Shown: positions 2,462-5,949 of the stretch, one piece after another
Numbering within the stretch: the stretch's first letter is position 1
Layout of the letters: every line of letters starts with the position of its first letter
DNA from: Bacteroidota bacterium
Lineage (GTDB): Bacteria; Bacteroidota; Bacteroidia; Chitinophagales; UBA10324
DNA length: 64,000 bases
Direction: 5' to 3'
Assembly: GCA_014190575.1 (NCBI GenBank)
Contig: BJGQ01000006.1
Span: 1-64,000 of the forward strand
Notes under the pieces: generated by a model
Seen by the model: only the letters and a program-made list of their open reading frames with translations
Told to the model about the DNA's origin: nothing
The model's database searches: none
Program-made: the position numbers and the translations under genes

Positions 2462-4054
2462 ATGAAATCAATAACATTCACAATTTTATTATTGTTAAGT
2501 ATCATTTCATTTTCACAAGCACAATTTCCTGCGTACACATTTTCAAATACAGGAATTGACAAAGGGTATTTTTTATTTACTCCAACTGATCAAAATGGAA
2601 TGGCTCCAAGCAGCCATTACTTCGCAATCATGGATTATACCGGTCATCTGATTTATTATTTTAATGGCTACTCTCAGGCAACAAGTTCAATAATTAATTT
2701 CAGTTTATTCAAAAATCATTTATTCAGTTTTTACAGAGGAGGTAAATTCTTTTTAGCCGATAGTAATTTTAATGTTGTTGATACCATTACTGCTACATCC
2801 GGATATTATAATGATCCGCACGATATTCAGTTGCTTTCAAATGGCAACTACATCATTCTTGCAAAAGAATTAGTGACGATGGATTTAAGTGGGTTCAATT
2901 TATTCACGCATACTTATAGTCCTGGGGATAGCAGCGCATTGGTTACATGCGGAGTCTTGCAGGAATTTAATCCTGCAGGCCAGTTAGTGTGGCAATGGAA
3001 AACACAGGATCATTTTACATTTGATGAGGCTCATCCATTCTGGCTTTTTGCACCTGATACACTTGACTGGTCGCACTTAAATGCAGTGGAAGAAGATTTA
3101 GATGGAAATATTTTAGTAAGCAGTCGATTTTTTAATGAGATATTTAAAGTTAATCATACAACCGGAAATATTATGTGGCGACTTGGGGGCTCTCACAACC
3201 AATTTACTTTTATAGGTGATTCAATTCCTTTTAAAGGGCAACATGATATAAGAGTTCATCCGGATGGTTCATACACCTTGTTTGACAATGGGTTTTTCTA
3301 TCCAAGCCATAAAGCAAAAGCAGAACAATTTTTACTTGACACAGTTGCATACACTGCTACTTTTATTCGAAAAGTGTATGCCGCCAATTTTGGATTTAGT
3401 GGTTCCAGAGGAAATGCCCAGTTTTTCAATAATGGAAATGTAATGATTGATTGGGGAGGAATGAGCAACGACAATCTTGTTTTTTCAATCGTTGATTCTT
3501 CCAATTCAGAAATTTGCAGACTATCTTTTGACGATTCATTGACTTCTTACAGATCTTATTATTATCCCGAATTGCCTTTCCAAATTAATCAGCCTGAAAT
3601 TTCATGTTTCGATTCATTGGGATATACTTTATTGCGTGCACCGGAGGGTTATGCTAAATATATGTGGTCGAATGGAAGCACCACTTCTTCAATTGTTGTT
3701 CAGGCCCCCGATACTGTTTGGGTTTATGTGCAATCAGGCACAATGGAAGGAATGCTTTCGTCAAAAAAATTTATTGTAGATGGGAATACTCAATGTGAAA
3801 ATTTTATTCCGAATTACAATAGTGGATTGTTAAAAATATTTCCAAATCCAACGACTGATATTGTTTTTGTCTCGGGGAAAATGGTTTCATTAATTGAGAT
3901 AGAAAATTTACTTGGGCAGAAAGTTTTTAATGAAACTTATTCTGATAGTTTAATGACTCGTGTTATTTCAATAAATAATTTTTCTCCATCTATTTATTTT
4001 ATAAAAATAAAAACAGAAGAAAGCGACTTCATTTATAAAATTGAAAAATTTTAG
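2462..4054 (+). CDS. secreted arylsulfotransferase-like protein with T9SS sorting domain
   Basis: This 530-residue protein has a signal peptide (about residues 1-20, ending SFSQAQ). The body resembles the arylsulfotransferase (ASST, Arylsulfotran_2) beta-propeller. Repeated blade motifs are visible (GHLIYYF, VWQWKT, GNIMWRLGG). Conserved histidines occur in DPHDIQL (about residue 120), DWSHLNAV (about 204) and GQHDIRV (about 261). In studied ASST enzymes, histidines in such positions form the active site that transfers sulfate between phenolic compounds. The last 75 or so residues form a type A T9SS sorting domain, starting LKIFPNPTTD and ending in a basic, aromatic tail. The protein is therefore predicted to cross the outer membrane and be surface-bound or released. 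It stands alone and is convergent with gpsA (9-nt gap). Substrate and true sulfotransferase activity are not proven. Confidence 0.72.
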   Translation: MKSITFTILLLLSIISFSQAQFPAYTFSNTGIDKGYFLFTPTDQNGMAPSSHYFAIMDYTGHLIYYFNGYSQATSSIINFSLFKNHLFSFYRGGKFFLADSNFNVVDTITATSGYYNDPHDIQLLSNGNYIILAKELVTMDLSGFNLFTHTYSPGDSSALVTCGVLQEFNPAGQLVWQWKTQDHFTFDEAHPFWLFAPDTLDWSHLNAVEEDLDGNILVSSRFFNEIFKVNHTTGNIMWRLGGSHNQFTFIGDSIPFKGQHDIRVHPDGSYTLFDNGFFYPSHKAKAEQFLLDTVAYTATFIRKVYAANFGFSGSRGNAQFFNNGNVMIDWGGMSNDNLVFSIVDSSNSEICRLSFDDSLTSYRSYYYPELPFQINQPEISCFDSLGYTLLRAPEGYAKYMWSNGSTTSSIVVQAPDTVWVYVQSGTMEGMLSSKKFIVDGNTQCENFIPNYNSGLLKIFPNPTTDIVFVSGKMVSLIEIENLLGQKVFNETYSDSLMTRVISINNFSPSIYFIKIKTEESDFIYKIEKF

Positions 4055-5226: not shown

Positions 5227-5844
5227 CTAAGGTTTGGTATAAATAATCTGCCGCACATATAAATTTTTTCCGACATGAATTTTTACAAGATATGCTCCTG
5301 ATGGAACTGAACTATCGAGTGTAAATACTTCATTGATAATTCCGCTTTGTGTTTGCGGTGTTCGTGTTTCAATCACTTCACCTTCTCGATTTACAATTTC
5401 CAAATTGGTGGCTCCTGATTGATTTAATGGTATTTCGAAGTTCACCTCGAATACACCGGTTGTTAATTTTGGTGAAATGGAAATCAAATCGTGAAATTCC
5501 ATGCTTCTTCCCCCACCGTTTGCCACTTTTTTTTTAGATTTCTTAACAGTTAAATCTTTATCGGTTAACAGATGGCTGTTGTCTTCAGAATGAATTCCAT
5601 TTTGACTTGAATTATTGTTTACGAGACTATCACCTCGGTCAATATTTGGCGCATTTAAAAGAGTATCGGTTTTTATTGTTATTCCTGCTTTTACAATATC
5701 ACTTTGTGTCACATTTTGTGTGAAAAAGAATATGCCTACAATAAATGCAGCTATTCCAAATCCTCTTGAAGAAAGTTGGAGCGTTCTTTTAAGAGTAATT
5801 ACCCTTTTTACTTTTACAGTTGTTGTAAAACTTAGTCTTCCCAT
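5227..5844 (-). CDS. single-pass membrane protein with a T9SS-like C-terminal domain
   Basis: I do not recognise a named family for this 205-residue protein. A basic N-terminus of about 27 residues is followed by one hydrophobic segment (about 28-42) that lacks a signal-peptidase site. Next is a Ser/Asn/Asp-rich linker. The last 80 residues resemble a type A T9SS sorting domain: ISISPKLTTGVFEVNFEI aligns with the usual IYPNPTTGxFxVxF start, and the end reads SGAYLVKIHVGKNLYVRQIIY. The usual PNP is altered to SPK. The topology would place the domain in the periplasm on an uncleaved anchor, unlike normal T9SS cargo. It may be a periplasmic structural protein that borrowed this fold. Confidence 0.6.
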   Translation of the reverse strand: MGRLSFTTTVKVKRVITLKRTLQLSSRGFGIAAFIVGIFFFTQNVTQSDIVKAGITIKTDTLLNAPNIDRGDSLVNNNSSQNGIHSEDNSHLLTDKDLTVKKSKKKVANGGGRSMEFHDLISISPKLTTGVFEVNFEIPLNQSGATNLEIVNREGEVIETRTPQTQSGIINEVFTLDSSVPSGAYLVKIHVGKNLYVRQIIYTKP

Positions 5845-5949
5845 GTTTTATAGAATAACAAGCGCTTTTACTAACTCAAATTAAAAAAGTTGTATACTAA
5901 TTTTGGGATAAATAAATATTTGATTAGAGAATAAGGACAATAGAAAATG

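Follow-up and report, generated by a model that had tools for sequence, protein, structure and literature searches.

Cargo of the T9SS has been described as carrying a plain Sec signal and a C-terminal domain (CTD) (PMC10202324, excerpt), and a Q-rule has been formulated for the signal peptides of Bacteroidetes (PMC5837995, excerpt). A glycine was reported as needed in the CTD of RgpB (PMC11285876, excerpt). Two small CTD proteins, Fjoh_0547 (112 residues) and PorA (PGN_0123) of Porphyromonas gingivalis, were reported outside the cell without a full T9SS; of the two, PorA acts upstream of the ECF sigma path PorXY-SigP (PMC7712824, excerpt). In another setting, ESPR autotransporters combine an exceptionally long signal sequence with cargo that takes a second step at the outer membrane (PMC2805444, excerpt), and the extended signal peptide treated in PMC8125069 (excerpt) concerns type V proteins. 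CTD cargo, Sec signals, the Q-rule and long autotransporter signals are already known; in the literature searched, which was mostly open-access, no description was found of T9SS cargo that combines a conserved extended signal with an ECF-type promoter motif common to its genes.

The window analysed here, a stretch of 64,000 nucleotides from a Bacteroidota bacterium (GenBank assembly GCA_014190575.1, contig BJGQ01000006.1), contains the gene of a small CTD protein whose features are collected in Table 1. The reading that we favour, at a probability of roughly 0.6, is that of a minimal T9SS cargo exported by an extended cleavable signal as part of a small ECF-type regulon. An extended Sec signal (27-residue n-region, core, 11-residue spacer and V-K-A↓G, the arrow marking the cut) would carry the protein across the inner membrane and would be cut after residue 53, a signal peptidase I being the probable enzyme. 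This would set free a 65-residue disordered linker with a type A CTD, which would then be handled by the T9SS. Transcription would start from AAC-N17-GTA, 24 nt upstream, probably by an ECF sigma factor and together with a few other extended-signal genes. The sequences themselves show the CTD, the conserved start, the common class of N-termini with its invariant Ala, the common upstream motif and purifying selection, whereas cleavage, the peptidase, T9SS transport, the sigma factor and co-expression are inferred. A distinct extended signal linked to a distinct promoter motif would mean that some cargo is sorted and regulated separately ahead of CTD action.

Table 1. Features of the small CTD gene, with positions in the window.
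Feature	Position	Strand	Evidence
CDS, small CTD protein, 205 aa + stop	5227..5844	-	Orthologues, purifying selection
Extended basic n-region, residues 1-27	5764..5844	-	Conserved in orthologues, akin to n-regions of other exported proteins
Hydrophobic core, residues 28-42	5719..5763	-	Uncharged stretch; model helix 30-45, low confidence
Spacer with putative V-K-A↓G site for signal peptidase I (residues 43-53; predicted cut behind Ala53)	5686..5718	-	Invariant Ala
Mature linker, residues 54-118, conserved DSLVN, SED and KK stretches	5491..5685	-	Alignment, structure model, pN/pS
Type A T9SS sorting domain with seven modelled strands, residues 119-205	5230..5490	-	TIGR04183, structure model, fold matches
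ECF-sigma-type promoter-like motif AACTTT-N13-AGTA (AAC-N17-GTA), 24 nt before ATG	5869..5891	-	Shared upstream motif

The original prediction of a type A-like T9SS domain at the C-terminus was borne out by the profile search it had proposed, as TIGR04183 matched residues 136-201 over profile positions 11-70 of 72 with 24.1 bits against a cut-off of 23. PF18962 gave 20.4 bits on the same protein, under its gathering score of 27. A relative in another genus of the same family (genome G010) scored above both thresholds (TIGR04183, 32.4 bits; PF18962, 28.3), and the window CTD is therefore placed in the TIGR04183/PF18962 family; judged by these profiles, it is a real member of the T9SS type A CTD family. 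Our own CTD profile missed one orthologue (L006). The structure model, built from seven sequences, showed seven strands between residues 121 and 202 with a pLDDT of about 80. Its fold matches included the CTD of mirolase (8qb1; Z 9.4, rmsd 2.4, 75 aligned) and PorZ (5m11; Z 9.2, rmsd 2.6, 78 aligned), and generic Ig/FN3 domains equalled or exceeded the CTDs among them (Z up to 10.7), so that the fold alone decides little. The search for sequence relatives of the protein in the PDB gave one insignificant match only.

Like other T9SS type A cargo, the protein has a C-terminal domain, predicted to be a seven-strand beta-sandwich, in which a Gly between strands 3 and 4 is conserved (G155, aligned by eye with the needed Gly of RgpB), and comes from a cargo-rich genome; it differs by the SPK that occupies the usual PNP position, by a mature cargo of about 65 residues and by the lack of a short A↓Q signal. 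PNP was missing in 7 of the 72 CTD ORFs sampled from the same genome, the window protein counted, and is thus not strictly defining. The idea that PNP loss marks a dead CTD was rejected, since other CTDs of this genome also lack it. SprA and GldM were found over their cut-offs in the genome together with at least 150 places above the TIGR04183 cut-off; by these matches, the organism has a T9SS.

Full-length orthologues at 64-80% identity were present in all five other genomes of the genus, and the G010 relative is likewise full-length, with 53% identity. Among 298 genomes searched across the order, full-length relatives sharing the linker were found only in the seven known ones. Of the named records with orthologues, one is labelled Bacteroidetes bacterium and the others are metagenome-assembled genomes of Chitinophagaceae or Chitinophaga. 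A 27-residue match in a gammaproteobacterial contig (L042) was taken as chance. The N-terminus of 27 residues ahead of the hydrophobic segment proved real: the start position is aligned in 7/7 orthologues, and no ATG, GTG or TTG stands between codon 1 and codon 45, a GTG that itself lies past the hydrophobic core. A downstream start giving a cleavable signal peptide, named beforehand as the finding that would overturn the prediction, was rejected on this ground.

The gene is under purifying selection: over 15 pairs of orthologues from six genomes, pN/pS is 0.33 for the whole gene, 0.25 for the CTD, 0.33 for the n-region and 0.42 for the linker, and the protein length stays constant. The weak CTD score and the lost PNP would suit a functionless cargo gene, relict or in decay, whose CTD has degenerated; against this stand the constant length, the low pN/pS and the upstream motif, which is retained in front of 7/7 orthologues, and we regard such decay as very improbable.

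Conserved homologues beside gpsA or rfaE2, which the original prediction had suggested looking for, were found within the genus: gpsA is adjacent to the orthologue in 5/5 genus mates and an rfaE2-like gene in 4/5. The G010 relative lies outside that neighbourhood with neither gene beside it, and a functional tie to gpsA or rfaE2 was rejected on this account. The neighbours in the window were named with NCBIfam, where the rfaE2 model was missed by 0.4 bits. Two genes away, window positions 2462-4054 (+) encode an arylsulfotransferase-like protein that has a short signal of the A↓Q type and matches TIGR04183 in its CTD (30.9 bits).

Ordinary cargo was sampled from about 255 kb of the same genome plus the window, in regions picked to cover many CTD genes (the choice used 140 of the 150 TIGR04183 places listed and left out 10). 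This yielded 72 CTD ORFs, 62 of which, the window protein among them, have a signal-like N-terminus by our rule. The median n-region of the 62 is 3 residues, and the window protein alone has one of at least 20, in agreement with the earlier claim that it lacks an ordinary signal peptide. The further claim that its hydrophobic segment is uncleavable was not supported: the core measures only 15 residues up to the first charged or strongly polar residue, and residue 53 is the Ala of a [VA]-[KR]-Ala site conserved in 7/7 orthologues, followed at +1 by G, R, S or N and never by Gln. Residues 1-118 were modelled at pLDDT under 50 with a helix predicted at 30-45, and linker residues 54-118 are probably disordered, as far as the model goes.

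A profile of the seven orthologue N-termini retrieved other exported proteins of like design from the same genomes, and widened profiles retrieved more. The extended N-terminus, ending in a signal-peptidase-like site, was found also on proteins of 550-1180 residues with typical CTDs; members with PNP-type CTDs include FN3 proteins of 626-629 residues and proteins of 1009-1010 and of about 550 residues. Of the 36 class proteins listed, some of which run off their contigs, a CTD was matched in 24 (our profile, E 0.01) and three more end CTD-like by reading. Across the class, 39 N-termini showed n-regions of 16-28 residues and uncharged cores of 14-28, most commonly 20, and the spacer from the core to the Ala is 10-11 residues in the class. 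This Ala is the sole invariant column in 18/18 representatives (<60% identity), and while the column aided the profile retrieval of relatives, it is invariant also within the orthologues found by whole-protein identity. Position -3 is A, S, V, T or M and +1 is S, G, N or A, and the sequence diverges directly after the Ala.

Small residues at -3 and -1 are the signal peptidase I rule, a pattern that the invariant Ala fits by its sequence context. Q-rule signal peptides share with the class the Ala at -1 and Sec export and differ from it in having Q at +1, seen at the A-x-A↓Q-like sites of 50/62 sampled cargo and in none of the 18 extended-class representatives. In other families of the class, whose loci were retrieved afterwards (19 loci read, from 19 of 22 other genomes; 56 places listed, 51 of them outside the source genome), the Ala lies 10-11 residues past the core in 18/19, the remaining one being an ordinary signal. 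Our site rule sets the site of one protein (L054) two residues early.

From the hydrophobic end to the Ala, the class has a median of 11 residues against 4 in ordinary cargo, so the c-region is not the short one expected for signal peptidase I. Chiefly because this distance is unusual, readings with an anchor or a late release were kept. The segment might never be cut, holding the CTD in the periplasm, where it would compete for or sense T9SS components. A long basic n-region more conserved than a plain signal needs, the 10-11 residue spacer, a core mostly of transmembrane length (20 residues) in the class, the missing Q-rule site and hardly any cargo beyond the CTD are all consistent with this, and PorA is a precedent for a small CTD protein with an effect on T9SS regulation (PMC7712824, excerpt). 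However, a like N-terminus is borne by the 550-1180 residue proteins with typical CTDs, the Ala with its -3/-1 pattern is invariant with divergence directly after it, and the core of the window protein itself is merely 15 residues; an uncut anchor is accordingly considered unlikely, and the fixed anchor first proposed as a decoy, competitor or sensor of T9SS load is not favoured. The N-termini of the class resemble signal anchors, an annotation trap that is corrected here. Somewhat less likely still is a signal that inserts as an anchor and is later cut at the Ala by a dedicated peptidase, with cargo waiting at the inner membrane until needed, to which the combination of a transmembrane-length core, a fixed 10-11 residue spacer and an invariant Ala, as well as the common upstream motif, would lend itself.

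A signalling role of the small CTD protein is possible by analogy, because Fjoh_0547 and PorA reportedly leave the cell even when the T9SS is incomplete, and PorA acts on T9SS regulation. PorA is, like the window protein, a small CTD protein; its signal has 27 residues and its N-terminal domain is FimH-like, whereas the window protein has neither and shows, between the site and the CTD, 65 residues modelled at pLDDT under 50. A regulatory or tethered role may nevertheless apply to it. ESPR autotransporters resemble it in the exceptionally long signal on cargo with a second, outer-membrane step and differ from it in sequence, phylum and secretion system. Searches with Pfam, where ESPR is presumably PF13018, gave no ESPR match to the window protein at E up to 10 or to ten class proteins scanned at E 0.01.

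The extended signal is also borne by a family of 181-284 residues in which no CTD was detected (L087 on contig C8 of the source genome, L050, L052, L054 and L101, the last with an FN3 domain), and hence it is not tied to the T9SS alone. At one locus of another genome (L099, G005:C18:8500-13500), two paralogues, 626 and 629 residues long, lie side by side, and each bears the extended signal and a CTD. In the source genome (L086, C38:13500-18000), a class gene is broken in two: the extended signal stands on a frame of 463 residues, and a second frame of 609 residues, in another reading frame and overlapping the first by a few bases, ends in a CTD. As the relatives have a single frame of about 1010 residues, the break is likely to come from a frameshift or an error of assembly. 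Several candidates were rejected: the short CTD frames in G011:C20, G054:C33, G016:C56 and G013:C41 start without the extended N-terminus, profile matches L136-L138 and L207 are unlike the extended signal, and L139 contains stops.

Upstream of the extended-signal genes, AAC-N17-GTA was found in 36/39 regions, often as AACTTT-N13-[CA]GTA, with the AAC placed 43-61 nt before the ATG; the 39 regions include mutual orthologues and are not 39 independent events. Other AAC/GTA spacings between 10 and 25 occurred in at most 4 of the 39 regions each, Markov resampling of the regions averaged 1.07 and never exceeded 5 over 1000 rounds, and the ordinary-cargo control showed the motif in 1/61 genes (2/62 counting the window gene). 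The source genome has 17 exact AACTTT-N13-[AC]GTA sites, five of which precede its five class genes found (C5, C6, C8, C25 and C38). The reversed-pattern control gave 67 matches there, indicating that the pattern is not over-represented and that it is its placing that stands out.

AAC and CGTA at this spacing are the form of ECF-sigma promoters. AAC-N17-GTA resembles them in its letters, with AAC followed by GTA, 17 nt between and a position close to the ATG. A SigP promoter consensus of P. gingivalis was not found in the excerpted part of PMC8265659, and no autoregulating sigma gene was found among 13 PF08281 (sigma-region-4) loci, all of which lack the motif directly ahead of the sigma gene.

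In family f1, each gene family of the class includes one or more members with the motif, and another family of the order, f4, has it in 4/6 regions. Beyond these two families, it was present in 6/19 loci, mostly of one family, and the signal is thus more widespread than the motif. The extended signal and the promoter could have spread together by copying. A broader reading, tentative and rather doubtful, would be a second dedicated entry route for a small set of mostly T9SS-type exported proteins, with a class-specific extended signal (conserved RLQL.PK.KVK-like n-region, core of transmembrane length and fixed 10-residue spacer) cut at the Ala by its own peptidase and with expression as a unit by one ECF sigma factor; the window protein, hardly more than signal and CTD, would then be its smallest CTD-bearing member and may report the state of the route.

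Three more exact sites in the source genome (L172, C18:33524; L176, C41:9960; L164, C1:167037) lie 29-36 nt before exported-looking ORFs with short signals, one of which has an FN3-like stretch. By this placing, these ORFs are possible further members of the regulon.
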